Below, in pieces: positions 22,195 through 40,544 of a stretch of DNA of 64,000 nt. Numbering within the stretch: position 1 is the first letter of the stretch; the number at the start of each line of letters is the position of its first letter. The DNA lies in the NCBI GenBank assembly GCA_016868475.1, contig VGGU01000007.1:1-64000 (forward strand), given 5' to 3'. The notes beneath the pieces are model-generated. The model saw nothing but the letters and a program-made list of their open reading frames with translations, was not told the origin of the DNA and searched no databases. A program made the position numbers and the translations under genes. Source of the DNA: Bacteroidota bacterium (GTDB lineage Bacteria; Bacteroidota; Bacteroidia; Chitinophagales; Chitinophagaceae).

Positions 22195-22449
22195 TTATCC
22201 CCCCGAAAATGGAGGCAACAATGCCACTTCATCTCCATTTTCGAAAAGCCTATTTTGGGAGACCACTTTTTGGTTAACGGCTATGCTTATTTTCAACTCA
22301 CTAATACCAGGGAAATTAATGCTAAGCCAGTCCTTTAAAGCATTTACATCAGTCATCCCTTCTACGGTTAAGGAATTAGCGTTGATTATTTCAACTGCTT
22401 TGCCAAATGCTATTACCCTAATTGTACTACCTGTGGTTGTGCTTTCCAT
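22195..22449 (-). CDS. moaD: MoaD, molybdopterin synthase sulfur-carrier subunit
   Basis: This 84-residue ubiquitin-like protein ends in LLPPFSGG, the Gly-Gly tail that is adenylated by MoeB and turned into a thiocarboxylate. It overlaps mobA by 37 bp and precedes moeB and moaE, its two partner genes. The first few residues (MESTTTGST) may be a slight extension; no better start is visible. Confidence 0.92.
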   Translation of the reverse strand: MESTTTGSTIRVIAFGKAVEIINANSLTVEGMTDVNALKDWLSINFPGISELKISIAVNQKVVSQNRLFENGDEVALLPPFSGG

Positions 22450-23015
22450 ATTGCTATATCATTTGGTGTATTCATATTCATGAACCCAGTTGGATACTTT
22501 TCTGTCAAATCGTCCATCGCCACGAGGCGGTGTGTTGATTCCAAAATAAGATCCTGTAGTTTAAGTTTATTTTCGCTAATACAAGCCGCCACCTTATTTT
22601 TTAACGTTACCGGATATATTGCCTGAAGTGGGTGAATACTTGAATTTGTTTCTGTTACAATAATTGTATTGCTGGCAATATTGTTAATCAAACGATGGAT
22701 TGCTTCAATTGGGAAAAACGGCGAATCGCAGGCAAGCAAGAGAACGAATTGTTTTTGTGTATAATGAAACCCTGTGTGCAAGGCCCCCATGGGTCCTTTG
22801 TGGGCAATAACATCCTTAACTGAATTAAACCCCAGTTGATCATATGCAGGAGAATTGGCAATTATCCTAAATGGAAACTGGTGTTGCTGCAATCTATCCG
22901 TCAAATGCAAAAGCATTGGCTTTCCGTTCATCAGCATTAACCCTTTATCCTGTTCCATCCGGGTGCTTTTGCCACCAGCCGTTACTACTATTTCTATGTC
23001 ATGCAGCGCAATCAC
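22413..23015 (-). CDS. mobA: MobA, molybdenum cofactor guanylyltransferase
   Basis: MobA adds GMP to molybdopterin to give the MGD cofactor of the DMSO-reductase family, which fits the alpha subunit encoded in the same run. The N-terminus has the nucleotidyltransferase motif TAGGKSTRMEQDKG; LLACDSPFF marks the metal-binding Asp region. The start is GTG at 23015, forming a GTGA overlap with the upstream TSUP stop. The length of 200 is normal. Confidence 0.9.
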   Translation of the reverse strand: MIALHDIEIVVTAGGKSTRMEQDKGLMLMNGKPMLLHLTDRLQQHQFPFRIIANSPAYDQLGFNSVKDVIAHKGPMGALHTGFHYTQKQFVLLLACDSPFFPIEAIHRLINNIASNTIIVTETNSSIHPLQAIYPVTLKNKVAACISENKLKLQDLILESTHRLVAMDDLTEKYPTGFMNMNTPNDIAIWKAQPQVVQLG

Positions 23016-23752
23016 TGAAAAATAAATTTAATTGAAGCAATGGCAAGTACAGTGGCCAAAGCTATTTTCATTGCAGGAATATTGAATTTATTAGCGCCAA
23101 AATATCCACCAGCCACTCCCCCTGCTAAGGTTAGCAGCACAATCCATTCAAAATGTGCAGGCATTGCAATACCTACTATTCCGGAGCCAATGATGCCCGC
23201 AATGGAATTAAGAAAAATAAACAGGGCACTAATTGTTGCTGTTTGTTTTAAATCAGTCCAACCTAAAATCAATAAAATGGGTGAAAGAATAATCCCCCCA
23301 CCAATACCAATCAATCCTGAAACAAACCCAATGGACAATCCTAATGCAGGAGCCATCCAAAACTTTCGCACAATGCTTGTTGAACCACTTACCGGAAACA
23401 CATTAAGAATTCGCATCACCGGGAAAAGCAAGAGTACGCCAAGCACTTTTTGGTAGATTTTTGCATCCAGAAAAAACAAACTACCTGCAAATGAAGCGGG
23501 TACGGAAAAAATGATCAACGATAGAAAAAGTTCTTTTGGAAATTTTTCAACCCTTCGAAATGATAAAAAGGATATGGCCGAAACACCAATGTTTAGCAAC
23601 AAAGCAGTGGGACGAATTTCGGCAGGGGCAAATCCGTACAAGGTCAGCAGAACCAGGTAACTACTTGCTCCTCCATGTCCAACTGAAGCGTATAAAAAAG
23701 CCACTACGGGCATTAATACAAATAAAATCGATATGGAAAAGTGTGCTTCCAA
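23012..23752 (-). CDS. TSUP (TauE/SafE) family membrane transporter
   Basis: This 246-residue protein has about eight hydrophobic segments and the TSUP features YASVGHGGASSYL and GLIGIGGGIILSP. TSUP proteins move sulfur-containing or small organic anions. Here it is embedded between moeA (4 bp) and mobA (4-bp overlap), so it should be produced with the cofactor and the reductase. An oxyanion such as nitrite, sulfite or molybdate is conceivable, but substrate cannot be read from sequence. No NarK-type transporter is present in the window. Confidence 0.85.
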   Translation of the reverse strand: MEAHFSISILFVLMPVVAFLYASVGHGGASSYLVLLTLYGFAPAEIRPTALLLNIGVSAISFLSFRRVEKFPKELFLSLIIFSVPASFAGSLFFLDAKIYQKVLGVLLLFPVMRILNVFPVSGSTSIVRKFWMAPALGLSIGFVSGLIGIGGGIILSPILLILGWTDLKQTATISALFIFLNSIAGIIGSGIVGIAMPAHFEWIVLLTLAGGVAGGYFGANKFNIPAMKIALATVLAIASIKFIFQ

Positions 23753-23756
23753 AAAA

Positions 23757-24932
23757 TTACCAATAAAATACTTCTACCAAATCCCCCTTCTGCCAAATCT
23801 TATCATTTTCGTGCAAAAGTGCAAAGGCATTTACATCAGCAAAGGGCAATAGATTAAATGAATCCTGTCCATGCAAAATGTTTACTTCGCCATTGATCAC
23901 CACAGCCTTCAAGATGTTTGCCAATTCACCCTTTTTTTCCCATGGATGAGCCAAAGGTAATGTGGCAGAAGCAGAAAATGGGCGCTCAATACCACGCATG
24001 TATTGCAAACACGGCTTAACGTATTGATTAAAACAGGATACCACAGCTGCAGGGTTTCCTGGCAGGGCAAAAACCATAGTCTTTTCTATCTTGCCAGCAA
24101 ACATCGGCTTGCCAGGCTTTTGTCTGATCTTATAAAACAGCGGCTCAACACCTTCATCGGAAAGGGCTTGAAAGACAAAATCGTATTCGCCAACGGAGAT
24201 CCCGCCTACTGTGATCAATACATCGCTATTTCTTATCGCAGACGAAACCACCTGCCTTAACTCATCGACATTATCTTTTACATGAAAGGCCTCCGCATCG
24301 TTTATACCTATTGCTTTTAGATACGCTAATAATGCAGGTTGATTTGAATTATATATTTCACCAGTAAGCAATGGTGTTCCCGTTTCTACCAGTTCATTTC
24401 CGGTTACAATTATCTTTACTTTGGGTTGGCGGTATGCTTGAATATGTCTGATCCCAACCGAACTTAGCAATGCCACTACACCTGGGGTAATAACGGTTCC
24501 CGCTTTAACAATAATCTCTCCTGTTTTACATTGCGCTCCCCGCAATCGAACATTTGCTCCAGATTGAATGCTACCTTCCTTAAAAGTTATTTTATTGTCT
24601 TGGATGGATACCAGTTCTTGCGGAATTACCGTATCCGCGCCTGCTGGTATGGGTGCGCCAGTAAAAATGCGCGCGGCATCATTGCCACTAACATAATGTG
24701 ATTTACGCTCTCCGGCCTGAACACTACCAAAAATTACATACTCGGTTTTGCTTGCGTTAAAGCAAAATGCATACCCATCCATTGCAGAATTATTGAACGA
24801 GGGTACATCAATTGGAGCTGTAACATCATTTTTTACTACTCTTTCAATCGCTTCAGTAATGAGCAACATTTCAGAGGGCAGCTTCCAAACATGTTCTGCA
24901 AGTATTTGCTTTGCTTCAATTAAACCAACCAC
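23757..24932 (-). CDS. moeA: MoeA, molybdopterin molybdenumtransferase
   Basis: MoeA inserts molybdenum into adenylated molybdopterin. This 391-residue protein has the signatures SFNNSAMDGYAF, GAPIPAGADTVIPQE, TGNELV and ALPGNPAAV in the usual order. It lies two bases after the small envelope-protein gene and 4 bp before the TSUP gene. Confidence 0.94.
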   Translation of the reverse strand: MVGLIEAKQILAEHVWKLPSEMLLITEAIERVVKNDVTAPIDVPSFNNSAMDGYAFCFNASKTEYVIFGSVQAGERKSHYVSGNDAARIFTGAPIPAGADTVIPQELVSIQDNKITFKEGSIQSGANVRLRGAQCKTGEIIVKAGTVITPGVVALLSSVGIRHIQAYRQPKVKIIVTGNELVETGTPLLTGEIYNSNQPALLAYLKAIGINDAEAFHVKDNVDELRQVVSSAIRNSDVLITVGGISVGEYDFVFQALSDEGVEPLFYKIRQKPGKPMFAGKIEKTMVFALPGNPAAVVSCFNQYVKPCLQYMRGIERPFSASATLPLAHPWEKKGELANILKAVVINGEVNILHGQDSFNLLPFADVNAFALLHENDKIWQKGDLVEVFYW

Positions 24933-24934
24933 AT

Positions 24935-25333
24935 TTATTTCTTTTTCAACTTATTCAACCTCAATCCCATTCCTATGCCGGCATTCCATTTTCCATTTGT
25001 ACTAGCTGTTTTAGCAGTATAATAAAAAGGAAGCTGAAAGACTAAATGCTTATAGGTATAAGTAATCCCGGCCCCTAACATGGGTATGGCAATAGAATTT
25101 TTTGTGGCCCCTTTGTCTTCCTTAAAACGTAAAGAAGGAAGCAGTCCAATAAATAGCTTAGACTCCCCTTTTGAGAAATTAATATTCGGCCCTAGGAAAT
25201 TCAGGTATGCAGCATTATTCACATATCCGCCAACAATGATACCCTCGAATAGAGAAGCGTTTCCATTTTTTTGCTGAGCAAATATTGTGCTTGAACAAAA
25301 TAAAATGGCCAAAGCAAAGATTAACTTTTTCAT
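24935..25333 (-). CDS. Small exported protein, probable beta-barrel fragment, unknown function
   Basis: This 132-residue protein begins with a clear signal peptide (MKKLIFALAILFCSSTIFAQ). The rest alternates polar and hydrophobic residues and ends with MGLRLNKLKKK. It resembles a small outer-membrane beta-strand protein, but I do not recognise the family. It sits between moaA (56 bp) and moeA (2 bp) in the long minus-strand run, so it is probably co-expressed. Confidence 0.6.
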   Translation of the reverse strand: MKKLIFALAILFCSSTIFAQQKNGNASLFEGIIVGGYVNNAAYLNFLGPNINFSKGESKLFIGLLPSLRFKEDKGATKNSIAIPMLGAGITYTYKHLVFQLPFYYTAKTASTNGKWNAGIGMGLRLNKLKKK

Positions 25334-25389
25334 GATTATAAATTTAAGTGGTTTATTGTTTTATTGTTGCAAATTCATGCTAAGCGCTT

Positions 25390-26373
25390 CTACCCGCCAA
25401 TACTTACCATTGAACGGTTGATCACGTGGTTGACATTGGTTAATTGATAGCCTTTTTCAAACTGATTGCCCATAGCAGCATGTTTAAGCTGAACAGACTT
25501 AAAAATAAGTTCCTCTATTCCGTCTCCATTGCGAAGAGCACTAAGCAAATCCAATTCATCTTTTCCAAAAAGGCAGTTTTTTATTTTTCCCTCTGCAGTT
25601 AGTCGGAGTCGATTGCACTCGCCACAAAACTGTTTGCTCATGGTGGTGATAAAAGCAAAAGTGCCTTCAAATCCAATAGCTTTATACTTACTGGCCGTGG
25701 CATGAGGCTCATCCTTCAATTTGATTATATCATATTGCTCCTGAACGTTGGCCAGTAATTCCTGCGCGGTAATCACTTTGTTCTTATGCCAACTATTACC
25801 GGTAAAGGGCATAAATTCAATAAACCTAACATGCAATGGTTTATTTCGGGTAAGCTCAATAAAGTCAACTAACTCATGCTCAATACTACCGCGAATGGCC
25901 ACTGCATTTATTTTTACACGGAAATCATTTTCTAATAGCAGTAAAATATTTGACCATACCTGCTCAAAAGCATTGCGTTTTGTTATATGTTCAAAAGTAT
26001 TCCCCTTCAAGGAGTCCAAACTCACGTTTACTGAAGTTACACCTGCCTTTTTTAAGGCTTCGATATGTCTGTGGACCAAACTGCCATTGGTAGTGATCAG
26101 CAATTCCACGCCCAGTACTGATAACCGTTGAAGAATTTCATCAAAATCCTTTCGCACTAACGGCTCTCCGCCGGTTAATCTAATTTTTCTAACCCCATGT
26201 TTTACAAAGATCTTAGCAAGGGCTTCAATTTCTTCACTTGTCATCAATTGAGCTTGCTTCATAAATGAATGACATTCTTCGGGCATACAATAATTACAAC
26301 GGAAATTACAGTTGTCAGTAACTGATATTCTGAGGTAGTCATGTATTCGGCCAAATCTGTCGGTAAGCATCAT
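25390..26373 (-). CDS. moaA: MoaA, GTP 3',8-cyclase
   Basis: This radical SAM enzyme performs the first step of molybdenum cofactor synthesis. The N-terminal cluster motif is CNFRCNYCM and the C-terminal cluster motif is CGECNRLRLTAEGKIKNC. TGGEPLVRKDF and SLDSL are also present, and the protein ends in Gly-Gly as MoaA should. Its length is normal (327). It follows the chaperone gene by 31 bp and so connects the reductase genes to the cofactor genes. Confidence 0.95.
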   Translation of the reverse strand: MMLTDRFGRIHDYLRISVTDNCNFRCNYCMPEECHSFMKQAQLMTSEEIEALAKIFVKHGVRKIRLTGGEPLVRKDFDEILQRLSVLGVELLITTNGSLVHRHIEALKKAGVTSVNVSLDSLKGNTFEHITKRNAFEQVWSNILLLLENDFRVKINAVAIRGSIEHELVDFIELTRNKPLHVRFIEFMPFTGNSWHKNKVITAQELLANVQEQYDIIKLKDEPHATASKYKAIGFEGTFAFITTMSKQFCGECNRLRLTAEGKIKNCLFGKDELDLLSALRNGDGIEELIFKSVQLKHAAMGNQFEKGYQLTNVNHVINRSMVSIGG

Positions 26374-26404
26374 GTCATTACTTCTCTTTGTTCAGCAGAG
26401 GTTG

Positions 26405-27019
26405 TTAATTTTTCTCGGTGCTGCAAGGCGGGGCACCATTTCCCGTCAATTCATTAGTAATAAATTCCTCCAACAAATAAGATACAGTTAAAAAGAAGGG
26501 CCCTGCCTCACCTTCGCGCAAACGCTTTGCCAGCGCAAGGGCAAACTCTCCGGTATGTTCTTCTAAAAATTTCCGATAAGCATCTTTGGTTACGCTTCTG
26601 CTTTCTTCATCCGATGCAATTACGTTTTTTACCAATAGTAAGGCCAGAAACTCCAACTGATACATAATGCTGTCGGGGTTCTCGCCTGTTTTAGGTGTAA
26701 ACCCAAATGCATTGTAAAATGCATTTGCGTCAGATACGCTATTGTATTTCTGCAGCAAGTGTGTTTCACTTAATGCAACACCTCCTCTAACAAATATGTT
26801 GGTGAACGCAGACAACACTTCATCTTCATTTGCCGATTCGGCAAGGGACAATAACATATTGTTGATGCTTTCATCCGGGTACCCTACCTGGTGTAAACCC
26901 ATCGCCATCTCTTTAATATTGAACAACCGTTCCTTATCAGGGTAGGCAAAACAATTTGCAATCAGTCTATACAAATCGGCATTCATGAGCATTACATCTG
27001 TCATTTGACTTGTTTTCAT
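26405..27019 (-). CDS. TorD/NarJ-like molybdoenzyme chaperone
   Basis: This 204-residue, all-helical protein has the TorD/DmsD/NarJ pattern: LYRLIANCFAYPDKERL at the N-terminus and MYQLEFLALLLVKNVIA in the middle. Such proteins bind the apo-alpha subunit and its Tat signal and hold it until the cofactor is inserted. It is 14 bp downstream of the gamma gene, the last of the four structural and assembly genes. Confidence 0.82.
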   Translation of the reverse strand: MKTSQMTDVMLMNADLYRLIANCFAYPDKERLFNIKEMAMGLHQVGYPDESINNMLLSLAESANEDEVLSAFTNIFVRGGVALSETHLLQKYNSVSDANAFYNAFGFTPKTGENPDSIMYQLEFLALLLVKNVIASDEESRSVTKDAYRKFLEEHTGEFALALAKRLREGEAGPFFLTVSYLLEEFITNELTGNGAPPCSTEKN

Positions 27020-27033
27020 TGAGTAATTCTTTT

Positions 27034-28323
27034 CTATTTTTGAAGCAATAGATCAATCCAAGGTACAAAGTGTTTTCTTCCGCCAATATTTTGGAAACCG
27101 CCATCCCATAAGGCAAAGGCAACTTTGGTTCTGTCAGTAAACGATGCCTTGTAGTGGTTGCCTGTATTCACAGGCACTACTATACAAAGTGTCCACTTTC
27201 CTTCTTTCCATTCAGCCCAAGCTTTAGCTTGTTGCGTTTCCTGCGTAGCAAGTGTTCCGAACCCTTCAGCCACGGCTTCTTCCACTGGTTCTTTTCTTTT
27301 TATCACCGACATAGGGTTATTGGAGTAGGTGCCTGGCATGTTACCTGTGGCATGTGTTTCAACAATTAATTCAGCTCCAATATCCTGAGCGTAAATTCTT
27401 TTACTTCGGTCTAAATAGCTTTCCAGACCAGGATAAACGTCTACCCACATATTTGGGTATTTCACCTGTACATCCTGGAATCCCTTTTCACAATCTTCCT
27501 GCCAAATGGCTTTCCAATGTACAATATGCACCATTCCCCCTTTATTACCCATCATGTAGCTGGGAATATCATTAAGACTAATTGGAAATTGAACGGCAAA
27601 TTGATCGCAAAACTTAACCACATCAACTTCATTGTTTTTTGAAGAATCATTCCACTCAATGCGAAAGGCAACTTCCTTGGGAAGATAAACACTCTTTATG
27701 GTCAGTTGTTCAACTGATGGATTTTTTAGCGTAGGATAAGTTGCTTGTTGTGGAGAAACGGGTAATTTGAGCGCCTCGATGGTTGACCAAAAATCCGCAT
27801 TTAACTCTTTAGCATTTATTTTCTGTTTTGCCGGATAGCTTTTTAATGCAAATTCAGCATCAACCCAATCAATTTTTTCCTTAGCAGCTGTCGGAGAATT
27901 GGTATTGGTTTTAACTGAAGGCTTTGTTGACGTATTAGCCTCCGTTGGTTTAGGGGTTGTTTTTGCTGGAGCAATCGGAGCGCTTTTGCTCTTGATGTAA
28001 GCCAAAATGTCTTTAAGTTGAACATCGGTAAGCGTTTGATCAGGCATCGGGATTTTGTTATGTTCATTGAACAACTTTACCGCAACCGGATCGCCACTTT
28101 TAACAAGAGCTTGAGATGAGCGAATAAACTTATTTAGCCATTGTGTGGGCCTGCGTGTTGTAACATTTATCAAGTCGGGTCCTACAATTTTTCCTTTGCC
28201 AATACTGTGACAGGCTGAGCAATTTGCTTTATAAATTTTTTCCCCTGCAGCGATTTGCTGAGCAAAGCTGTTTTGCAAACACATAGTGCTAATGCAAAAT
28301 GAGATGAGCAATATTCTTTTCAT
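27034..28323 (-). CDS. Cytochrome c / ethylbenzene-dehydrogenase-type haem b fusion (gamma subunit)
   Basis: I start at the ATG at 28323 because MKRILLISFCISTMCLQNSFAQ is then a proper signal peptide; the ORF-track start adds 12 charged residues. A class I cytochrome c domain follows (CSACH, GPDL, distal Met in IPMPDQ). A Pro/Thr/Lys-rich linker (about 100-140) leads to an EB_dh-type domain with PSYMMGNKGGMVHIVHW. In EbdC-like subunits this region gives the Met ligand of haem b. The fusion would pass electrons between the beta-subunit Fe-S chain, haem b and haem c in the periplasm, so a quinol-oxidising NarI is not needed. Confidence 0.85.
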   Translation of the reverse strand: MKRILLISFCISTMCLQNSFAQQIAAGEKIYKANCSACHSIGKGKIVGPDLINVTTRRPTQWLNKFIRSSQALVKSGDPVAVKLFNEHNKIPMPDQTLTDVQLKDILAYIKSKSAPIAPAKTTPKPTEANTSTKPSVKTNTNSPTAAKEKIDWVDAEFALKSYPAKQKINAKELNADFWSTIEALKLPVSPQQATYPTLKNPSVEQLTIKSVYLPKEVAFRIEWNDSSKNNEVDVVKFCDQFAVQFPISLNDIPSYMMGNKGGMVHIVHWKAIWQEDCEKGFQDVQVKYPNMWVDVYPGLESYLDRSKRIYAQDIGAELIVETHATGNMPGTYSNNPMSVIKRKEPVEEAVAEGFGTLATQETQQAKAWAEWKEGKWTLCIVVPVNTGNHYKASFTDRTKVAFALWDGGFQNIGGRKHFVPWIDLLLQK

Positions 28324-28364
28324 AAATTGTTTTTTCAAATTTCTATTGGATTCCTTCAATTAAT

Positions 28365-29492
28365 CTATGGTGTATTGTGACGGAATGTTTGGAATTGCGC
28401 ATCCCAATGAGGCCTATTGTGAACTGGCTCTACGTAAGGCACGCGAACAATTTCATCGCCAATTTCGTTATAGCCTACTGCATGATTTTCTTCGGCCTTG
28501 TAGGAATGGATGATCCTTGGCGTATTTCCAAATAACATGAACGCCGCAAGCAATTCCTTATCATCCTTCATATTACGATATAGGGTGATGGCATCCTCCA
28601 CATTAGGCCCAAACATCTGAATCAAGAAATCTTTTGGCACATGTACCGGTGGCACATAATACACATTGGGTTGTGTTCCAAATTGCGGGTATAGGGGAAG
28701 TGCAATTTTTTTAATCCGAACAATCATATCAAACGGACTATCTCTTCGAGGTTCTTTGGCGTCTTCCATAAACCCTTGTAAACGAATTTTTCCAATACAA
28801 CTAGTAACGCATCTAGGCTGTTCACCTTGTTCAATCAATGGGTAGCAACCAATACATTTTTCAGAAACACGGGTTACCATGTTGAAAAATGTTTTTTTGT
28901 AAGGACAGGCTTTCACGCATTCTTTGTAACCACGGCAGCGCGATTGATCGATCAAAACTATTCCGTCTTCTTCTCTTTTATAGATCGCTTTACGTGGACA
29001 TGCAGCCAAGCAACCCGGATAGGAACAATGATTGCAAATGCGGGCCAAATAAAACATCCATATATCATGTATGCCATTAAAGAATGCTCCCTTCTCCATG
29101 TTGCCTAAAACTTCATCTTCACCAATATTTGGAAAAGCGTAGCTCCTTTCTTCTGGTCTCCATCCCGTTACCCTTTCTCCGGATTCACTCTCAAAAATGG
29201 TTTTACCTTTATAAACACCCCCTTTACCCCATTCTTGCTCATTGAGTTCCTTCAGGGTATTTACATCCCATTTTTGCGGGTATCCACCGTATGGTTTTGT
29301 TTCCACATTATTGAAGAAAATAGTCTCCTCACCCTTACCAGCTGCCCAAGTAGTTTTACAAGCTACTGTACAGGTTTGACAAGCAATGCATTTGTTTGTA
29401 TCAAATACATAGGTGATCTGTTTTTTAGGCTTTTTTTCTTCATAGGGATATTCCATTTCCCTATTGAGTTGCCAGTTTTTTACCTTTGCCAT
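28365..29492 (-). CDS. Iron-sulfur beta subunit of a type II DMSO-reductase-family enzyme (NarH/NxrB-like)
   Basis: This 375-residue protein carries four cluster motifs: CIACQTCTVAC, CNHCSYPGCLAACP, CRGYKECVKACPYKK and CIGCYPLIEQGEQPRCVTSC. NarH has Trp where this third motif has Tyr (CRGY), a position linked to a [3Fe-4S] cluster. The length is closer to EbdB/SerB/NxrB-like subunits than to E. coli NarH (about 510). It has no signal peptide and would be exported bound to the alpha subunit. It lies 13 bp after the alpha gene. Confidence 0.9.
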   Translation of the reverse strand: MAKVKNWQLNREMEYPYEEKKPKKQITYVFDTNKCIACQTCTVACKTTWAAGKGEETIFFNNVETKPYGGYPQKWDVNTLKELNEQEWGKGGVYKGKTIFESESGERVTGWRPEERSYAFPNIGEDEVLGNMEKGAFFNGIHDIWMFYLARICNHCSYPGCLAACPRKAIYKREEDGIVLIDQSRCRGYKECVKACPYKKTFFNMVTRVSEKCIGCYPLIEQGEQPRCVTSCIGKIRLQGFMEDAKEPRRDSPFDMIVRIKKIALPLYPQFGTQPNVYYVPPVHVPKDFLIQMFGPNVEDAITLYRNMKDDKELLAAFMLFGNTPRIIHSYKAEENHAVGYNEIGDEIVRVPYVEPVHNRPHWDAQFQTFRHNTP

Positions 29493-29505
29493 GTTCTTAT
29501 TTCAT

Positions 29506-32500
29506 TTATTTTTTAACAAAGTTTCCTTTCAAAAATTTCTTAAAGTCATCGTTCTCATAGGTAGGTCGTGTACCATTTTCAGTTCCTTCCCACAAGCCGC
29601 TTCCTCCAATGCCTCCTTTTTCTGCAAGTGATATTTTCACAAAGGCTTCACGAGGGTTGCCGGTTGCTCCATGAACATCAATTTCAAAGCCCTTTCCTAT
29701 TCCCTGACCGAAATTGTTTTTACGTACCAAAGAATCAGTAAGTAAAGTTGGTTTCAGCCAAGCTCGCGTACAACTTTGGTGCGAACCATTGCGGAAAAGT
29801 GCCTGATACCCCGTTTTATTATTCTTAGCTAACCCGTTTGCGTTTTCTTTTGCTCCGGCAACTGAACCGTATGTTGCGCCATAGGCATTGTGCCACATCC
29901 GCGTAACGCCTCTCTGAGTTCCTGGATAGAATCGAGCACGCGCCTTCAATCTTGCCAATTCGTATTCCGGACCATTTTTTCTGCCGGCTAATCCACGGAA
30001 AGGACGATCAGAAGGGTCGGCATCAATCCAAACATAATCGCCATCCTCAACGCCTAACTCGCGTGCATCTAGCGGATTGATATCCACATAGAGTTCCGTA
30101 ACAAAAGGAATGCGTTTATCCCTTCTATGCATGTCGCCAAATGGACCAAACCAAACGGCTACGATATCCGTGTCTACCGGAGTGGTATGTGCGCCGTGCC
30201 TGAACTTGGGCGTGTGGAAAATAAATTTATAATCCTTGTCCTTTAGGTGTAGCGGGTGCTTAGTGTTCTTCACCTCGCTCCATGGTTTTACAACGTTTCT
30301 CGCCTGACGCGTGTCTGTAGCAAGATCATTGATATCCACCCCGTATTTCTGCGGTTCGTCAGGCATAATGCAAGGGTGTTTTTTACCAACAATTACATTA
30401 GGCTCGTAGAATGTGGAATCGATGGGTTCGCGGAAAACAACCATATTTTCCCCGGCTTCAATAAACTCGGGCTCGTCACGATAAAACTCCAATCGTCCAG
30501 ATTTGGTATACCATTGCTTGTCCTCATTGCTCTGCTCCATACCTACAAATTTTGGCGTGGTGCGTGTCATCATCAATGCTGGAATACCTTTTTTAGCTTC
30601 AGCTTCCAATTCATTGAATTTATATCCTCTGGTACCTTGGCTGGTATTAAGAATGCGTTGCAAATAAACTTCAACCTTATTTTCAAACACAAACTTGAAC
30701 ATATCACGGAAGCGTGAGTCGCCAGTTAAATTACCAAAGGCAGACGCAATTCCTGCAATGACTTCAATGTCTCCTTTTGTATCAAAGATTCTTTTTAATG
30801 GTGTTCTGGGGAACACATATAAGAATGGATTGGTTACCGACATGGTCATGTCTGGATATTTGAATTCAGCCCAAGAATCTACCGGATAAACAATGTCTGA
30901 ATATTCGCAAGAACCTGTCCACCACCACTCCAGCACGCTAATAAATTCAATTTTTGGATACACATTTACTACGTTATCGTAGTGTCCTTTTGAATTGGCG
31001 AGCAATGAGTTTCCATTGGAAACCATGATGGACTTTGTAGGAGTAGGCATGTGCGTTTCCCCTGTCATGTTCTTATTACCCATGCGTAAAATGCGATCGC
31101 CATTGTTGAAGTAGTGCGCTGATTCATAATGCATGTACTTCTTCACTTTGGATGGTTTAGTTTCATCCAACTCCAGATTAAATGGATCTTCGGCAATATA
31201 ACCAGGTATGCCAGAGAATAAGGCACCACGGTAGTTACCGGCATATGATCCCACATTACCTCCTATCTTGCCCACGTTTCCAGTGATGCTAGCCAGGAAA
31301 AATACTGCACGATCTTTTAGATCGTTATTGAAAAACTGGTTAGGCCCCATTCCCATGGCAAATAAAGTGTTACCACTATTCGTTGCAATTTCATCTGCAA
31401 TCGCTTCAATTCCTTTTACAGGCGCCCAAGTGAGTTCTTCAATAGTTTTTGGATCAAAGTTTTCCATTACGTATTCCTTCATCAAATCAAAAACAGTACG
31501 AACTTCTACTTCCTTTCCATCTATTGTTTTTACTTTGAATCTACCCTCCAATGCCGGGTTCAGTCCTTTCTCCCGCATATACTTACCATAATCATCACGG
31601 GTAATTACAGATAGCGCATTTTTAGTTTCATCCCAGACCATAAAGTCGCCCCATTCTTTTGCCATTTCTTCATCTACAAATGGCGCCCCCTGTTCCGGAG
31701 ATTTTTTTGCTTTCTCTCCCTTCTTCAAAATCTCAATGTAATTTTTCAAATCAGGTTTCTGATAATTCAAAATCACATCAGTTGGCTTCAACATTTTCTG
31801 ACTATCCATCCGAACCAAGAAGGGCAGGTCGGTGAATTTTTTCATAAAATCAGCATCGTATTTTTTGTCGCGAATAATCACATGCGCAAATCCCAATGCC
31901 AATGCAGGTGTAACTCCAGGACGAACCACCAGCACATTATCTCCTTTATTTGCGGTTGCACTATACTCGCAGGCAATTACGGTAACCTTAGCCCCCTTCA
32001 TACGGGCTTCGGTAAGCCAGTGCGCATCGGGCATTTTAGTGGTTATCCAGTTCATACCCCAAACAATTATATGCTTTGAATGTTCGGTGCAAAAAAGGTC
32101 AAAGTCAACGGTTTGCTGACCTGTAACCATAGGATGCCCCGGCGGTAGATCGGTATGCCATGCATAACTGTCCCAAGTGCGTGCACCCTTAGAACCCTCT
32201 GGTCCTTTATTATTGATGGCATTATCTAGTAATGCTAGAGAGTTTGCCAATCGATTGATACCAAAAATGCGTGTTACACCAAGTGGAGCCATACCTCCAC
32301 GGAATTTCAGTACTTCCACTCCGTGTCCATGGGTGGCTTCGACCATTAATGGGTCATATCCTTGTGCATGTAATTTATCCTGACCTTCTTTTCCGTTATA
32401 GGTTCTGGCAATATTATCCAGCACTAATGCAGTGTACTTAAAGGTGTCTTCCCAGGTGATCTTAACAAAAGCCTCTTTGCCTCTTTGCATATACTCCTGC

Positions 32501-32988
32501 GCAATAGCCCCTGTTTTGATATCCCGAGGCATACCGGCATTTATCCATTTCAAATATCCTTCACGAATAAGTGGATATTTTGCTCTGCGGTCTCCATAAA
32601 AGCGTCTGGCCAGCGCCAAACCTTTCTGGCAGCAACGTGGTTCCCATCGGGCAGAGGTTTGGTTGCCCTGTGCATCTGTTGCTTTTCCAAAACCATAACT
32701 TGGTGCAATACGTACTACTGCTCCATTTTTTACCATTGCTTTCAACAGGCAATTGTGTGTGTCATTGGGAGCACATAAAAATGTGAACTCGTCGTCATAA
32801 GCCCACATATCACGGTATGTTTTTTCCCAACCCCTGTTTGGATATCCTCTAAGTGGATTTTCAATGTCTAAAGGATCGAAAAAGGAGAATGCTTGAGAAA
32901 ATCCGCTAAGGGGCAATGATGACAGTGCTATTGTGCCAAGCCCGCTCAACAGCCCTGATTTGATAAACTGTTTTCTTGATGATTTCAT
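29506..32988 (-). CDS. Molybdopterin catalytic subunit, NXR/pNarG-like periplasmic nitrate reductase candidate
   Basis: This 1160-residue alpha subunit begins with a Tat-like signal, [10 protein letters not shown], with Arg-Lys in place of twin Arg. The N-terminal Fe-S motif is C72-x3-D76-x3-C80, then C119/C120. E. coli NarG has His-x3-Cys-x3-Cys, and the Cys/Asp pattern recalls nitrite oxidoreductases and outward-facing archaeal nitrate reductases. D280 in HTDLPPG aligns with the Mo-ligand Asp222 of NarG (YCDLPP). [16 protein letters not shown] and [13 protein letters not shown] are also NarG/NXR-like. Nitrate is the most probable substrate; chlorate, selenate, or nitrite oxidation cannot be excluded. 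It heads a 16-gene minus-strand run with tandem FNR-like sites upstream. Confidence 0.88.
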
Positions 32989-33235
32989 GACCTGATAATT
33001 TGGTATGTTATTTATCGTTTGTAAGTACCTCTAAAAACAGTCACAAAGTTGTCTGCAAATAGGATATCAACAGATTGATTATTATCATATCAAATACTGA
33101 TTATAGTCACTTTATCCCATACAATATCCATTAGATAAACGTGGTTAACGTTCTCTCGCTTCAGTTTTAACCAGATTAGTAAGGGAAAAAGAGCCCAGAT
33201 TTAGAATTCGAGTATTCTATTTTGGGTTGTTCCAA
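32989..33235. other. 247-bp gap upstream of the molybdoenzyme operon
   Basis: This is the longest gap between genes in the window. It holds the tandem palindromes described separately. I found no convincing ORF, RNA gene or strong terminator in the rest, which is AT-rich. Its length is unusual for this compact segment and fits a regulated promoter. Confidence 0.5.
33074..33111 (-). promoter_or_regulatory. Tandem CRP/FNR-like palindromes upstream of the nitrate-reductase-like operon
   Basis: Two copies of the palindrome lie side by side: TGATTATTATCA (33076-33087) and TGATTATAGTCA (33098-33109). Their centres are 22 bp apart, about two helical turns, and 93 and 115 bp upstream of the alpha-subunit start. 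Read on the minus strand the second is AGTGACTATAATCAG, differing from the persulfide dioxygenase site at only two positions of 14. The -7 box is not clear: CAAATAGG at 33056-33063 is a partial match on the minus strand. Confidence 0.6.
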
Positions 33236-33637
33236 TTATTGCAATTCTGCAAACATGGATGCCAGCTTTTTTACAAACCCACACTCATGTTTTTCAAATT
33301 TTTGTTGTACTAAAGAAAAGGGGTAAACCACTTGGCTACCATTAGCGCTCACCAATACATATTCCTGGCCAAAATGATCGTCATTTATTTTCCATTCATA
33401 GTGGAGTTCTGTAATAAAATGATGCCCCATTGCATAGGCTATTGCAGGCACAATCTGGCCACACAAGGTCTGGTCTTCTTTGCAACATCTGAAAAAAACA
33501 ATGTCGATTGTTTTTGTTTCAAAAGCGCTTTCCTTTAATTCCGCGGCAAAAGTTTGCAGGTAGCGCAAATACATTTCTTTTAATCGGCCCAGGGTTTCCA
33601 AGTCTTGTTCGGAAAGGTCTTTTAAAGCAGTTTTCAT
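33236..33637 (-). CDS. Conserved-looking protein of unknown function, 133 aa
   Basis: I do not recognise this protein. It is soluble, without signal peptide or membrane helix, and has four Cys residues (RCCKEDQTLC and HECG). That spacing could bind a metal but matches no motif I know. It lies upstream of the molybdoenzyme operon on the same strand, with its own promoter-like TAACTTTG box. It may simply be a neighbour; the 247-bp regulatory gap argues against a single transcript starting here. Confidence 0.55.
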   Translation of the reverse strand: MKTALKDLSEQDLETLGRLKEMYLRYLQTFAAELKESAFETKTIDIVFFRCCKEDQTLCGQIVPAIAYAMGHHFITELHYEWKINDDHFGQEYVLVSANGSQVVYPFSLVQQKFEKHECGFVKKLASMFAELQ

Positions 33638-33666
33638 TTTTATTATTATGGCTAACTAATGCCGCG

Positions 33667-33698
33667 CAAAGTTACACCCTCAAATTACAATAGGCAAG
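33667..33698 (-). promoter_or_regulatory. Bacteroidota-type promoter upstream of the 133-aa gene
   Basis: On the minus strand a perfect -7 box TAACTTTG (33674-33667) lies 30 bp before the start codon, with CTTG 20 bp upstream of it (33698-33695) near the TTTG -33 consensus. This is the best-matching two-part promoter I noticed in the window. Confidence 0.5.
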
Positions 33699-33826
33699 GG
33701 ACTTATTTACTAAGTCCCGACTAAAACCAACCATCCTAAATTGAGGTATTATATGTTCACAACTGTTGATAAGTAATTATTGGAATTGCTCTTTATCCAT
33801 ATTAATATTGGATTAAATCCTACGAT

Positions 33827-34795
33827 TTGACAGAAGCTATCATCAACCTCGAAACCGTTAACCCGATTGAATTTTTCGGAGTCAACAACGGAAAACTTGA
33901 TATTCTTAAAAAGAAATTTCCACTGCTAAAAATTCTTTCTCGTGGCACTCAGTTAAAGCTGAGCGGCGCTCCCGAGCAAATAGAACCGGCATGTGATAAA
34001 ATTTCGCTTATTGTCTCTTACCTGGAACGTAATGGACATATGAGTCAGCAGTATTTTGAACAAGTACTGGGCGGAGATGATGCCGAAATAGTTGACCATT
34101 TTCAAGAAAAAAACCCATCGGAGGTTCTTGTATTTGGCCCTAATGGAAAATCCGTTCGTGCTCGCACAGCCAATCAAAAAAAATTAGTTCAAGAAGCTGA
34201 TCGTAACGATATTGTATTTGCTATTGGCCCGGCCGGAACGGGCAAAACATATACAGCGGTAGCTTTGGCAGTTCGGGCCTTAAAGAACAAACAAGTAAAG
34301 AAAATAATCCTTACCCGACCTGCTGTTGAAGCCGGAGAAAGTCTTGGTTTTTTACCCGGAGATTTAAAAGAAAAGATTGACCCCTATTTACGTCCACTTT
34401 ATGACGCTTTAGACGATATGATACCTGCCGACAAACTCGGTTATTATATGACAACTCGTACCATTGAAATAGCTCCACTGGCCTATATGAGGGGACGAAC
34501 GCTTGACAATGCGTTCATTATTTTGGACGAGGCGCAGAATGCCACTGGTTTGCAATTAAAAATGTTTCTTACCCGGATAGGGGCCAATGCAAAGGCAATT
34601 ATCACCGGAGATATGACACAGGTGGATCTTCCGCGTAATCAACGTAGCGGTTTACATACTGCTGTGCGCATCTTAAAGAATATAGAAGGAATTGGGCACA
34701 TTGAATTGAACGAAGAAGATGTTGTTCGTCATCGATTGGTTAAACATATCCTTCGCGCTTACAACCACGAACACGAAAGAGAAAACCCCAAATAG
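33827..34795 (+). CDS. phoH: PhoH-like ATPase
   Basis: This 322-residue protein is a PhoH family P-loop ATPase with Walker A GPAGTGKTYTAVALAV and Walker B FIILDEAQNAT, plus TGDMTQVDLP. An N-terminal KH-like region (LKILSRGTQLKLSGAPEQIE) precedes it, suggesting RNA binding. The family is linked to RNA metabolism and ribosome quality control. The start appears to be a TTG at 33827: upstream there is a stop in frame and no ATG or GTG in between. The start fits the family N-terminus (INLETVNPIEFFG). Confidence 0.9.
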   Translation: MTEAIINLETVNPIEFFGVNNGKLDILKKKFPLLKILSRGTQLKLSGAPEQIEPACDKISLIVSYLERNGHMSQQYFEQVLGGDDAEIVDHFQEKNPSEVLVFGPNGKSVRARTANQKKLVQEADRNDIVFAIGPAGTGKTYTAVALAVRALKNKQVKKIILTRPAVEAGESLGFLPGDLKEKIDPYLRPLYDALDDMIPADKLGYYMTTRTIEIAPLAYMRGRTLDNAFIILDEAQNATGLQLKMFLTRIGANAKAIITGDMTQVDLPRNQRSGLHTAVRILKNIEGIGHIELNEEDVVRHRLVKHILRAYNHEHERENPK

Positions 34796-34804
34796 CGCTT
34801 ATTC

Positions 34805-35227
34805 ATGCAGAAACTGATCACAATTTTCTTTTTGTTTATTCTCGGCACAGCTTGTCAGCAAAAAGAAAAATCATCCCCAACCGCCTCCAGCGAAATTGAT
34901 GCTGCTCGTAATTTTTTAAGAGCAGCCCTTGATGGTAAGTTTGATATAGCCAAGGATTATTTATTGCAAGACTCATTGAATTTAAGCTACCTGGATATAG
35001 CGGCAAGAGGGCACGGAAAATTAACACAGGACGATAAGGATAGCTATAGAGGCTCATCCATCATTATTCATGAAATTCAAGCTCAAAACGATTCAACTTC
35101 GCTATTAATTTTTTCTAACTCTTTTAAGAAAGACCAGGACACCTTGCGGATTATCAAAAAGGATCAAAAGTGGGTTGTAGACCTGAGTTATTTATACCTT
35201 CATCCTACTTCATCGAACAATCCATGA
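34805..35227 (+). CDS. Putative lipoprotein, unknown function
   Basis: This 140-residue protein starts with a hydrophobic signal ending in LGTACQQ, a weak lipobox, so it is probably a lipoprotein. The mature part (ARNFLRAALDGKFDIAKDYLL, later WVVDLSYLY) resembles DUF4878-type or NTF2-like small secreted proteins. It starts 9 bp after phoH and overlaps the crcB start by ATGA. Confidence 0.6.
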   Translation: MQKLITIFFLFILGTACQQKEKSSPTASSEIDAARNFLRAALDGKFDIAKDYLLQDSLNLSYLDIAARGHGKLTQDDKDSYRGSSIIIHEIQAQNDSTSLLIFSNSFKKDQDTLRIIKKDQKWVVDLSYLYLHPTSSNNP

Positions 35228-35601
35228 ACTACGCTATCCTGTTTGTTTTTTTGGGTGGAGGCATGGGGTCCATTTTACGTTACTACGTGGGCAGGGAACT
35301 TAACCCGCCATTGGGGCTTTCTTTTCCTATTGGCACGCTCTTAGTCAATTTGGCCGGATCCTTGTTAATTGGGCTGCTTTGGGGAATCACCGAAAAATCC
35401 AATGATAACAATTCGTCAGTTCAATTATTGCTGATCACTGGATTTTGTGGAGGATTCACCACCCTTTCAGCACTTTCACAAGAAACTTTCTACTTTATTA
35501 AAACCGGGAACCTAGTCTATGCAATTGGTTATAGTTGCGCTACAATTTTGGGAGGAGTTTTACTTACTGCCCTTAGCTACAAAATAGTTACTTCCTTATA
35601 A
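35224..35601 (+). CDS. crcB: CrcB/Fluc fluoride ion channel
   Basis: Fluc channels form dual-topology dimers that expel fluoride. I choose the ATG at 35224, overlapping the lipoprotein stop as ATGA; the ORF-track start at 35170 adds 18 non-family residues. The 125-residue protein has four membrane helices and the signatures GGGMGSILRYYVG, FPIGTLLVNLAGSLLIG and GFCGGFTTLS. It ends 6 bp inside the convergent Mur ligase gene. Confidence 0.93.
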   Translation: MNYAILFVFLGGGMGSILRYYVGRELNPPLGLSFPIGTLLVNLAGSLLIGLLWGITEKSNDNNSSVQLLLITGFCGGFTTLSALSQETFYFIKTGNLVYAIGYSCATILGGVLLTALSYKIVTSL

Positions 35602-36984
35602 CTGGTCATAGAGTTCTTTTGCAAATTGTTCAAGCGAGGGATCTCTGGCACCCATCAATAGTAATACGCAATCATGCTGCAGTGACTCTCGAACGGCTGA
35701 TAAAAATAGATTTCGATCTTCAATAAAATTTGCCTTAACCCCTAGCGTCTTTAAATCAGCAACCAAATCCGATGCTGAAATGTCTTTTACTGCTGTACCG
35801 CCGGCATAGTAGATTTCGCTCATCCAAATCTCATCTTGAGAACGCAGAGAGGCAGCAATGGCCTGCACAAAATCATTTCGCAAAAAACGAGTTGGCTTAT
35901 ATCCGTGGGGTTGAAACCAAGCAACAACTTTTGAAGCAATAGGTTGACAAGCCGTGATGGCAGCTGCACATTTTGCTGGATTGTGTGCATAATCGTCAAT
36001 TACCCAGACTCCATTTTTTTGTCCCAGGATCTGATGTCTTCTGTAAATGCCTTGATATTTTTTCAAAGCTATTGCTGCCGTAGCTAATGGGACTCCTATT
36101 TGATGCGCCACTGTTGCAGCAGCCAAGGCATTTTCCATATTGTGTTTTCCAACCTGTTCTAACGCAAATTGCTCTCCGTTGATCTCAAATTGGATGTGTA
36201 GTCCCCTTTGTGAAAATCCTTTTGCAATATATCCCACATCAACGGTTTCTTCGCAGGTTTGCTCCACTTTAAAATCCTTTGCACCATCAACGGATAGTGT
36301 AGCTGCAAGGGGATGTGTTTGATTAACAATAAATTTCTTGCTTTGAGCCCTAAACTGCTTGAATAGGCCAACTAAAGTATTCACTTCGTCGTGGTCCTTG
36401 TCGATGTTTAATAATAGTCCTATTTCAGGGTGATATTGTACAATTGATCCATCACTTTCATCGGCTTCAATCACCAGCCATTCTCCTTTTCCCACCACAG
36501 CATTCCCCAGTTTTCCCTGCTGAATGATCCGTGTTAAACCTGCGCCACTGATAATACTTGGATCAAATCCGGCTTGTTCTAAAATATCAAAAAGCATGGC
36601 AGCAGTAGTGCTTTTTCCGCTGGTACCTGCCACCGCAATAGTTTTTTTACTGGCAGCGATAATGGCAAGTAATAAGGCCCTATGAATAATGGGAATTCCT
36701 CTTTCCTGTGCAATTTTAACTTCCGGAACAGTGGATTCAATGGCAGTTGAAACCACTACCAAATCAACAGTATGGTCAAGACCCGATCCATCCTGAGGAA
36801 AACATAAAATGCCTTCTTTTTCTAATTGAAACCGAACGGCCTGTCCATCGCCTGTATTGAATTGCCGGTCACTGCCTGCTACATGCATACCAATACCTTT
36901 GAGGTATTGTGCAATAGCGCTCATACCCGTGCCAGCAATGCCAATAAAGTAGGGACGTGAAAAATCCTGCAATCTTGTAATCAT
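35596..36984 (-). CDS. Mur ligase family protein (MurC/Mpl-like)
   Basis: This 462-residue enzyme has the MurC/Mpl N-terminal motif FIGIAGTGMSAIAQYL, the ATP motif AGTSGKSTTAAML, and DDYAHNPAKCAA. The Gly-Ser in place of the usual Gly-Lys-Thr context suits the family. It may be a peptidoglycan-recycling ligase (Mpl) or a MurC-like ligase; because it lies outside a dcw cluster, recycling is more likely. It is 6 bp from the DsbA-like gene on the same strand. Confidence 0.8.
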   Translation of the reverse strand: MITRLQDFSRPYFIGIAGTGMSAIAQYLKGIGMHVAGSDRQFNTGDGQAVRFQLEKEGILCFPQDGSGLDHTVDLVVVSTAIESTVPEVKIAQERGIPIIHRALLLAIIAASKKTIAVAGTSGKSTTAAMLFDILEQAGFDPSIISGAGLTRIIQQGKLGNAVVGKGEWLVIEADESDGSIVQYHPEIGLLLNIDKDHDEVNTLVGLFKQFRAQSKKFIVNQTHPLAATLSVDGAKDFKVEQTCEETVDVGYIAKGFSQRGLHIQFEINGEQFALEQVGKHNMENALAAATVAHQIGVPLATAAIALKKYQGIYRRHQILGQKNGVWVIDDYAHNPAKCAAAITACQPIASKVVAWFQPHGYKPTRFLRNDFVQAIAASLRSQDEIWMSEIYYAGGTAVKDISASDLVADLKTLGVKANFIEDRNLFLSAVRESLQHDCVLLLMGARDPSLEQFAKELYDQL

Positions 36985-36990
36985 GAGACC

Positions 36991-37608
36991 TTAGGCTCTT
37001 TGCTTCTGTCGAGGAGCTGGTTTATTAGCAGGCGCAGAAACTTTTGCTTTACTTGGTGGCGTCTTAGATTTTGTTCTACGCAAGGCATTCTTAATTGCCG
37101 TACTTAAATTAGCAAATGTTGGTTTGCCACTAAAAGGAGTATCATTAATAAAAAAAGCAGGCAATTCCTTTACTCCTCGATTGCGTCCTTCTTTAATATC
37201 GTCTTGTACTTGCCAACCATAGACACCATTTACTAAATCATCTAAGAATTTTTTATTCTTGACGCCTGCTTCCTTGCTGTAAAGCTTCAAACTGGTAGTG
37301 CCCAGGTTTCTTCTGTTATTAAATAGCACGTTATGCATTTCCCAAAACTTACCTTCCTGTGCAGCAGCAATGGCGGACTCGCTGGCCTTCAGACTGCGTT
37401 GATGAATTAAGGTTAGTGGGAAATGACGAAATTGAAAGTTGATCTTACCTTCAAACTCTTCCAAGATTTGTTTCACTATTTCATTCACTTTTGCGCACTC
37501 CTCATTCTCATATTCCCCAAATTCCATCAAGGTAACAGGCGCATCTTTTTTTCCAACAAACACTTCACGAGGTTCAATAATAACAATATCTTCTTTTTTG
37601 AAAGCCAT
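36991..37608 (-). CDS. DsbA-like thioredoxin-fold protein lacking CxxC
   Basis: This 205-residue protein has the DsbA/NhaA-C-type thioredoxin fold: PVTLMEFGEYENEEC, FRHFPLTLIHQRS, AQEGKFWEMH and GVKELPAFFIND. The redox motif is altered: where DsbA has CPxC it has N-E-E-C, leaving one Cys. Ordinary disulfide exchange is therefore unlikely. There is no signal peptide, so it is cytoplasmic, and a basic, Pro/Lys/Ala-rich tail (about 175-205) may bind nucleic acid or partners. Function is unknown. Confidence 0.7.
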   Translation of the reverse strand: MAFKKEDIVIIEPREVFVGKKDAPVTLMEFGEYENEECAKVNEIVKQILEEFEGKINFQFRHFPLTLIHQRSLKASESAIAAAQEGKFWEMHNVLFNNRRNLGTTSLKLYSKEAGVKNKKFLDDLVNGVYGWQVQDDIKEGRNRGVKELPAFFINDTPFSGKPTFANLSTAIKNALRRTKSKTPPSKAKVSAPANKPAPRQKQRA

Positions 37609-37825
37609 ATTCTTTTATTTTAAAGACCAAATTTTGCCCTACAAAAATTGTGGCAATTATTGATCCAATGTGTTGACGCTTACTCAATTAATATAATAGT
37701 CAACCGGCTGAAGATAGGATATTTTACCCTCAGGCCTACAGCCATTTATAATTTTTAACAATTATTGTATATTCAACTCATTATCAATTGGTTAGTAGGT
37801 GCTCTTTTAAAAAATAAAATCCCAT

Positions 37826-40417
37826 TTATTCATGCCTAAAGACCAAGGTATTGTCAAATGCATCCACTAATATGGGCTTTCCTTTTTCAATTTCACCGGC
37901 TACAATTTTTTTACTGAGCAAATTGACTATTTCTTTCTGTATTAACCTTTTTAACGGCCTTGCCCCCATCTGAATATCATGCCCCTGTTCAGCCAGATAT
38001 TGCAAGGCGTATTTGCTAAACCTAAGCTCTATTCCAGTTTTGGATAATAATTCTTTTAAACCACTTAATTGAATCTCCAATATTCCAACCAGATCCTTTG
38101 GCAGAAGTGGCTGAAACAAAATGATTTCGTCTACTCGATTCAAAAACTCCGGTCTCACCGTATTCCGAAGTAATTGCATCACCTGTCCTTTTGCGCGTTC
38201 AGTTGCCGATGAAAGTGTTTTTTCCGTCACTCCTTCAAATGCATCCATGATCAGCTCACTGCCCAAATTGCTGGTCATGATTACAACTGTATTCTTGAAA
38301 TTTACAACCCTACCCTTATTATCGGTCAAACGCCCTTCATCAAGTACTTGCAGTAAGATGTTCCATACGTCGGGGTGCGCTTTTTCAATTTCATCGAGCA
38401 ATACCACACTGTAAGGCTTGCGTCTAATAGCCTCTGTCAGTTGTCCTCCTTCTTCGTACCCTACATAGCCAGGAGGCGCTCCTACTAATCTGCTTACTGA
38501 ATGTTTCTCCTGATATTCGCTCATGTCTATTCTGGTCAACATGGTTTCATCATCAAATAAGAAATGAGCAATTGCCTTTGCTAATTCGGTTTTACCCACT
38601 CCTGTTGTTCCTAAGAATATAAAGGAACCAATGGGTCTTTTGGGATCCTGCAAACCAGTTCTACTTCTGCGAATAGCATCAGAAACGGCAACAATAGCCT
38701 CTTCTTGTCCCACCACTCTTTCATGTAAATGATCTTCAAGAAATAGCAATCGCTCTTTTTCAGATTGCAGCATTTTTGAAACAGGTATTCCTGTTGCTTT
38801 AGCAACGGCCTCTGCTATGTCTTCCGCATCCACTTCTTCTTTTAGTAAGCGCTGTTCTGACTCTTGGGATAATTGATTACTCAAAGTGGCTATCAAATTT
38901 TCCTGCTCCTTTATCTTGCCATATCGGATCTCCGCTACTTTGCCATAGTTTCCCTCGCGCTCCGCTTGCTCTGCTTCCAACTTTAGTTGCTCGATTGAAA
39001 GTTTTGTTTTCTGTAATTGATCTACCAATTCTTTCTCTGCCACCCACTTTGCCTTCAAGGTATCTCGTTGAACAGCCAGATTAGCTATATCTGTATTCAG
39101 CTCCAGCAACTTGGGCTCATCGTTTTCGCGTTTAATGGCCTCTCTTTCTATTTCAAGTTGTCTTATTTGACGTTCCAACGAGTCTAATTCTTCAGGCATG
39201 GAATTCATCTCCAAACGCAGCTTTGCAGCACTTTCATCAATCAAATCGATTGCTTTATCCGGCAGAAATCGGTCGGTAATGTATCGATGAGATAATTCAA
39301 CGGCAGCAATAATAGCCTCATCTTTTATTCGAACATGATGGTGTGTTTCATAGCGATCTTTCAAACCACGCAAAATTGAAATGGCATCTTCCGTATTGGG
39401 CTCTTCAATAAATACTTTTTGAAACCTACGTTCCAATGCTTTGTCTTTCTCAAAATATTTTTGATACTCATTGAGTGTGGTGGCCCCCACTGCGCGAAGT
39501 TCTCCACGAGAAAGAGCAGGCTTTAAAATGTTAGCCGCATCCATAGCCCCCTCGCCTCCACCAGCTCCTATTAAAGTATGTATCTCATCAATAAATAAGA
39601 TAATATCTCCATTTGAATCGCCCACTTCTTTCACCACTGCCTTCAACCTTTCCTCAAATTCTCCTTTGTACTTGGCCCCTGCAATCAACAAGCCCATGTC
39701 CAATGAATAAATCACTTTTGTTTTTAAGTTTTCGGGCACATCTCCATTGATTATACGATGCGCGATTCCTTCTGCAATAGCGGTTTTTCCAACACCCGGT
39801 TCACCTACTAGAATGGGATTGTTCTTGGTGCGACGAGACAGTATATGCAAGGTTCTTCTGATCTCTTCATCGCGTCCGATCACGGGATCTAATTTTCCTT
39901 GCCGGGCCAGATCATTAAAGTTTTTTGCGTACTTGGATAAGGCATTGTATTGTTGCGACTGTGTAACTGAAGTGATCTTGTCTCCTTTTCGCAACTCTTT
40001 AATGGCTGCAATAAGTCCCGTTTCAGTTAACCCTGCGTTTTTCAAAAGCTTCCCAACCGCATCGTCACCTTGAACCAAGGCAAGCAACAAATGTTCCGGA
40101 GTAACAAATTGATCATTAAAAACACTTAGGCAAGCGCCCGCCCGAAGCAATAAAGTGTTGGCCTCCCTGCTTAATTGCTGAGCTGCTTCTCCTTTTACCC
40201 GAGGTAAGGTAGCCAATAACTCTTCGGCCTTGGTAGCCACAATTGTAGTGGTAACATTATTTTTCTTTAGTAGATACTCAACAGGTGTATCGGTTGCCTC
40301 TATCAATGCCTTCAAAACGTGCGAGGGTTCGATAGCAGGCGATTGAGCATTAAATGCCAATTGTTGTGCTTGCTGAATTATTTCGGCAGCCTTGATGGTG
40401 TAATTTCCAAGATTCAT
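37826..40417 (-). CDS. clpB: ClpB protein disaggregase
   Basis: ClpB dissolves protein aggregates with DnaK. I use the ATG at 40417 ([21 protein letters not shown]), the family N-terminus; the ORF-track start adds 22 unrelated residues. Two Clp N repeats are followed by AAA1 with [13 protein letters not shown], a coiled-coil middle domain (about 400-530), and AAA2 with [13 protein letters not shown]. The length is 863, as expected. Upstream lies 127 bp shared with a divergent gene. Confidence 0.97.
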
Positions 40418-40520: not shown

Positions 40521-40544
40521 TCATAGCATTCAATAAATATCTGC

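Follow-up and report, generated by a model that had tools for sequence, protein, structure and literature searches.

Probable periplasmic nitrate reductase from the sister clade of Nitrospira and anammox nitrite oxidoreductases, encoded with Moco genes in a Bacteroidota operon

In the crystal structure of the Kuenenia nitrite oxidoreductase (NXR), the FS0 cluster of the alpha subunit is ligated by C67, D71, C75 and C115, molybdenum is ligated by D275, and N70 faces the substrate; the haem b ligands of the gamma subunit, KsNXR-C, are M155 and K305 (PMC8387239). Residues that set NXR apart from nitrate reductase (NAR) include N312/T259, E527/A542, K917/H1092 and D71/C53 (review, PMC12300631). 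Earlier work has drawn attention to a clade beside the NXRs and to the uncertainty about its direction (PMC6050957, PMC10732223, PMC9306079). Nitrotoga, placed by its authors in this sister clade, grows on nitrite, and the nitrate reducers reported from the branch are Hydrogenobacter thermophilus pNar (PMC6050957) and those of Methanoperedens and Thermogutta (PMC10732223). The reported identity of Nitrotoga and Hydrogenobaculum to Kuenenia, about 40% (PMC8387239), fits the placement of Nitrotoga in the sister clade and is similar to that of the alpha subunit described here. The clade is a broad, little-tested set of relatives of the enzymes by which nitrifying bacteria make nitrate, and gene surveys often assign its NarG/NxrA matches arbitrarily to nitrite oxidation or to nitrate reduction.

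The operon analysed here lies in a 64,000-nucleotide stretch of a Bacteroidota genome, hereafter the window (Table 1). Its alpha gene is a single ATG-started frame, the plus strand there being full of stops, and encodes a type II DMSO-reductase-family subunit. Residues C72, N75, D76, C80, C120, Y275 and D280 were read directly from the sequence. An earlier note had picked out the Cys-Asp-Cys cluster motif (C72-x3-D76-x3-C80) and the retained Mo ligand D280, and alignment confirmed both: C72, D76 and C80, together with C120, stand opposite the four Kuenenia NxrA cluster ligands, D280 opposite D275, and N75, the predicted substrate Asn, opposite N70. The likeness to NXRs and outward-facing nitrate reductases claimed in that note also held, in that the best phmmer match among solved structures was K. 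stuttgartiensis NxrA (7b04; 840 bits, residues 23-1159), followed at a distance by perchlorate reductase (205 bits), NarG (about 130) and ethylbenzene dehydrogenase (121). Such a near-full-length match, together with the retention of D76 in relatives, dismisses chance resemblance. There are also matches to TIGR03479/03478, though with scores below the curated cut-offs; family membership is borne out by D280, C72/D76/C80/C120 and the 15 beta cysteines.

Table 1. Positions, in window numbering, of the operon, its neighbours and other features mentioned in the text
Feature	Position	Strand	Basis
Metallo-beta-lactamase/rhodanese protein	1132-2550		
Sulfide:quinone-reductase-like flavoprotein	3015-4211		
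CcoG, near CcoNO	7331-8743		
CcoP, near CcoNO	8730-9830		
Fused CcoNO of cbb3 oxidase	10038-12176	minus	same contig as alpha
FixI-type ATPase, near CcoNO	12459-14897		
moaC-moaB fusion	16830-17741	minus	sequence; conserved place beside other Moco genes
moaE	20641-21081	minus	
moeB/ThiF-type adenylyltransferase, C-terminal region rhodanese-like	21065-22183	minus	family match
mobA	22413-23015	minus	family match
TauE/SafE-family transporter within Moco cluster	23012-23752	minus	family match
moeA	23757-24932	minus	family match
132-aa protein, no function assigned; 68% identical homologue in same place in L003	24935-25333	minus	
moaA, sole copy found in genome	25390-26373	minus	family search
TorD/NarJ-type assembly chaperone	26405-27019	minus	family match
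Gamma subunit (441 aa): cytochrome c + EB_dh haem b	27034-28359	minus	domain matches, alignment
Beta subunit (NarH/NxrB-like, 375 aa)	28365-29492	minus	399 bits to KsNXR-B
Alpha subunit (NarG/NxrA-like, 1160 aa)	29506-32988	minus	FS0 and Mo ligands, phmmer, alignment
One-mismatch FNR/CRP-like palindrome, 100 bp upstream of alpha	33075-33088	minus	shuffle test
DUF3806 protein (133 aa) upstream of alpha; 72% identical counterpart in same place in L003	33236-33637		
Superoxide-dismutase-like protein	49923-50669		

The Cys-Asp-Cys motif is not a novel feature, because the Kuenenia structure already shows Asp ligation, nor does it by itself point to NXR: the 3Cys/1Asp FS0 is an established trait of the branch (PMC8387239). 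The Asp is present in 101 of the 104 related sequences that cover the site (12 plus 72/75 of the sister clade, and 17/17 NXR), so that the motif marks the whole branch rather than nitrite oxidation. The three exceptions, Nitrospirota sequences within the sister clade (L091-L093), have C-x3-C-x3-C instead and have either lost the Asp ligand or not yet gained it. The Tat-like signal proposed for alpha is an RK variant; it reads S-R-K-Q-F-I-K (codons 5-6 AGA-AAA), whereas relatives L003-L010 have RR, encoded in L003 by AGA-AGA. The variant could affect export efficiency, or could be a one-base change or an error. Elsewhere in the window, a superoxide-dismutase-like protein has a clear SRRTFIK twin-arginine signal.

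A genome scan gave 535 relatives, the best 80 of which were retained for comparison; Nitrospirota genomes supplied Nitrospira-type NxrA, some in several copies, and plasmid records supplied NarG, ClrA and haloarchaeal sequences. FastTree and IQ-TREE concurred, under model LG+G4, with partial Kuenenia and PcrA sequences and with some long end branches, on an outgroup of NarG, ClrA and PcrA, followed by a haloarchaeal sequence and then by a pair of sister clades: NXR (Kuenenia and Nitrospira; support 100/100) and a large mixed clade that includes the window alpha (100/100) and is widespread in Acidobacteriota, Planctomycetota and others. One carrier in culture is Stieleria sedimenti (L021). Membership in the canonical Nitrospira/anammox NXR clade was rejected, since forcing the window group into it costs 254 log units (AU test, p = 1.2e-5). 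Placement with cytoplasmic NarG, named in the earlier note as an outcome that would count against its reading, was likewise rejected at a cost of 309 log units (p = 1.7e-4). The reading given there is right in part: alpha falls outside NarG and beside NXR but in a sister clade rather than inside the canonical periplasmic NXRs. The tree contains no Nitrotoga or Hydrogenobacter sequence, and their assignment to the sister clade comes from PMC6050957. The nearest archaeal relative (45% identity), on a Natronococcus occultus plasmid (L114:8700-9351), is unannotated, has an apparently frameshifted N-terminus and is possibly a pseudogene.

At the alignment columns of the published NXR/NAR contrasts, T317, M547 and K928 are fixed in the 89 sister-clade sequences; the 18 NXR sequences carry N, E and K there without exception, and NarG carries T, A and H. 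The canonical NXR pair Asn312 and Glu527 is thus replaced by T317 and M547. At the Mo-site loop, the sister clade reads T279-D280-L281-P282 (89/89), NXR reads G-D-Q (18/18) and NarG C-D-L-P, so that Q276 and N312, both fixed in NXR, correspond to L281 and T317. Read from these columns, the pocket combines both types: positions 281, 282 and 317 are NAR-like, positions 76 and 928 are NXR-like, and 547 has a state of its own. T279, L281, T317 and M547 (89/89) versus G, Q, N and E (18/18) provide a simple test that distinguishes the sister clade from true Nitrospira/anammox NXR.

The direction of the reaction, which the earlier note left open, is now less so. We infer nitrate reduction because L281, P282 and T317 match NarG, because the AU test keeps the window group out of the NXR clade, because nitrate reducers are reported in the branch, and because the genome has a partial-denitrifier setting: a nosZ cluster is present, and single-family searches, whose controls worked, detected neither NirK nor NrfA. 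Such enzymes work in both directions, which counts against a firm reading, and the case is further weakened because D76 and K928 match NXR, while M547 matches neither NarG nor NXR.

Beta has all 15 ligand-position Cys, and it has Cys45 where Nitrospira sequences have Asp; Nitrotoga beta likewise has Cys45 (PMC6050957). As the earlier note had observed, there is no NarI gene; in the gamma product an N-terminal monohaem cytochrome c domain, with its CxxCH at 47, is joined to an EB_dh haem b domain. Gamma aligns to KsNXR-C, with the predicted haem b ligands kept as M270 and K429. The fusion occurs in the window and in L003, L004, L005 and L007 but in none of the 65 other loci with a gamma gene, the L006 gene being cut by a contig end. 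Four relatives (L008, L009, L010 and L012) have near the operon a separate cytochrome c gene whose product can be aligned to the fused domain, pointing to this cytochrome c as the direct partner of gamma.

Taken together, alpha is probably a periplasmic Mo-bisMGD nitrate reductase drawing on quinol via complex III and cytochrome c. In the predicted scheme, alpha-beta would be exported by Tat and gamma by Sec, and electrons from quinol would pass through alternative complex III to the cytochrome c domain of gamma, then from gamma haem b to the four Fe-S clusters of beta, on to the FS0 (3Cys/1Asp) of alpha and finally to Mo. Nitrate would there be reduced to nitrite in the periplasm, so that neither a nitrate importer nor a nitrite exporter would be needed. 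The quinol:cytochrome c route is favored by the presence of ActA, ActB and ActC of alternative complex III in the same genome (contig C2) and by the closeness of the gamma cytochrome c domain to ActA (E 7e-16); ActA, ActB and the nos accessory genes were assigned from their sequences and from their places around the family matches to ActC and NosZ. Passage through gamma is favored by the Met/Lys haem b ligands and by the separate matching cytochromes c of the four relatives. As a separate observation, the window also encodes a metallo-beta-lactamase/rhodanese protein and a sulfide:quinone-reductase-like flavoprotein, which suggest that sulfide oxidation could also feed quinone.

The same chain could run in reverse, from nitrite through alpha, beta, gamma and cytochrome c to the cbb3 oxidase, as a physiological nitrite oxidase giving extra energy to a heterotroph (lithoheterotrophic growth). 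The cbb3 genes on the alpha contig and the cytochrome c-bearing gamma with Met/Lys haem b ligands would serve nitrite oxidation equally well, which weakens the nitrate reductase reading. The best solved relative is moreover the Kuenenia NXR, with the same FS0 ligation and K928; the Nitrotoga NXR belongs to the sister clade according to its authors (PMC6050957); and the enzymes not found in the genome, NirK and NrfA, are those that would consume nitrite. We nevertheless consider nitrite oxidation rather unlikely, given that alpha lies outside the NXR clade, that the NXR-fixed Q276, N312 and E527 are L281, T317 and M547 throughout the sister clade, and that nosZ and complex III are in keeping with N-oxide respiration. 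The corresponding extension, that the module is a portable operon that brings its own cofactor synthesis and makes some Bacteroidota facultative heterotrophic nitrite oxidizers by passing nitrite electrons via the cytochrome c-fused gamma straight to cbb3, is a shade more doubtful still; we found no report in the literature of nitrite-oxidizing (nitrifying) ability in Bacteroidota.

Gamma belongs to the EB_dh family, which is common to Ser, Clr, Ddh and Ebd (membership also given in PMC3578206), and raises the alternative of a reductase of another oxyanion (chlorate, perchlorate or selenate) or of a dehydrogenase like Ebd or Ddh. This is improbable, because ClrA and PcrA fall in the outgroup of the tree, N75 and a nitrate-type pocket are kept, and no chlorite dismutase was recognized within 22300-42000 or in the other ORF lists.

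Returning to the probable nitrate reductase, its operon encodes a nearly complete Moco pathway. The order alpha-beta-gamma-chaperone-moaA-moeA-(tauE)-mobA-moeB-moaE-moaCB is repeated in Bacteroidota loci, and TauE/SafE lies among the Moco genes in seven of the nine compared loci with such clusters (L003, L004, L007, L008, L014, L015 and L016), raising the possibility of a role in molybdate transport. TauE has been proposed as a nitrite exporter for another enzyme (PMC4821891); that role is doubtful here, since the enzyme is predicted to be periplasmic and the transporter gene lies within the Moco cluster.

The source genome is small (1.74 Mb, 96.7% complete); it has no PF00384 protein other than alpha, and moaA was found only in the operon. 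Single-family searches found neither a PF00384 enzyme nor moaA in the congeneric genome G158 (100% complete), which also lacks nosZ, and no moaA in five other family members. The enzyme occurs in 2 of 200 family genomes and 2 of 396 sampled Bacteroidota genomes, in agreement with the earlier remark that it is unusual for the phylum. Enzyme and Moco synthesis therefore behave as an accessory respiratory module: the only PF00384 enzyme is linked to moaA, and G158 is without both. The absence from G158, along with the Candidatus Competibacteraceae label of one relative (L007), might instead be taken to mean that the block is foreign DNA introduced by a binning error. This is highly improbable, because Bacteroidota-type genes flank the operon on both sides of the same contig at even GC, the adjoining PhoH is 87% identical to the congeneric copy, and several independent Bacteroidota MAGs carry this operon too. 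The neighbors of PhoH are rearranged in G158, so that no clean empty site for the operon is seen there. The L007 alpha (80%) and operon group with Bacteroidota despite the label, which reflects mislabelling, mis-binning or transfer.

One-mismatch FNR-type palindromes precede alpha, ccoNO and fixI (chance by shuffling 0.03, 0.03 and 0.005, respectively). The alpha box is only a lead, because it is missing in 8/8 nearest relatives. CRP/FNR-type regulators with N-terminal Cys clusters are encoded near the operon in relatives (L003:440-1168, L006:7865-8686 and L008:5962-6711), where oxygen-sensing control is possible.

With the clade itself already described, what is added here is the set of diagnostic residues, a Bacteroidota lineage with a fused gamma, and the joining of the enzyme with Moco synthesis in an accessory module. 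The Bacteroidota operon, compact and self-sufficient, would allow direction to be measured.

Among known systems, the enzyme resembles the Kuenenia NXR-ABC (PDB 7b04) and Nitrospira NXR in near-full-length alpha alignment, 3Cys/1Asp FS0, Mo Asp, substrate Asn and K928/K917, and resembles Kuenenia NXR-C in its soluble haem b gamma with Met/Lys ligands. It differs from them in its 36-40% identity and separate fully supported clade, in T279/L281/T317/M547 versus G/Q/N/E, and in a 375-aa beta with Cys45, versus about 430 aa and Asp in Nitrospira. With E. coli NarGHI it shares the Mo Asp, the substrate Asn and the L281/P282/T317-type pocket positions; NarG, however, differs in having His as its first FS0 residue, Ala in place of M547 and His in place of K928, is only about 24% identical to the window alpha, and works with a membrane NarI. 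The position as sister to the NXR clade is shared with the Ca. Nitrotoga fabula NXR and H. thermophilus pNar (theirs from PMC6050957, PMC8387239), but in the window alpha Q292 is followed by T where Nitrotoga has M, and the fused cytochrome c of gamma sets it apart from the Nitrotoga/Hydrogenobacter group. The fusion is not wholly new, because in Nitrospina gracilis alt_NxrC haem c sites and a haem b domain are likewise united in a single protein (PMC3578206); alt_NxrC, however, is an alternative subunit beside a standard NxrC, whereas the fused gamma is the only gamma of the window operon.
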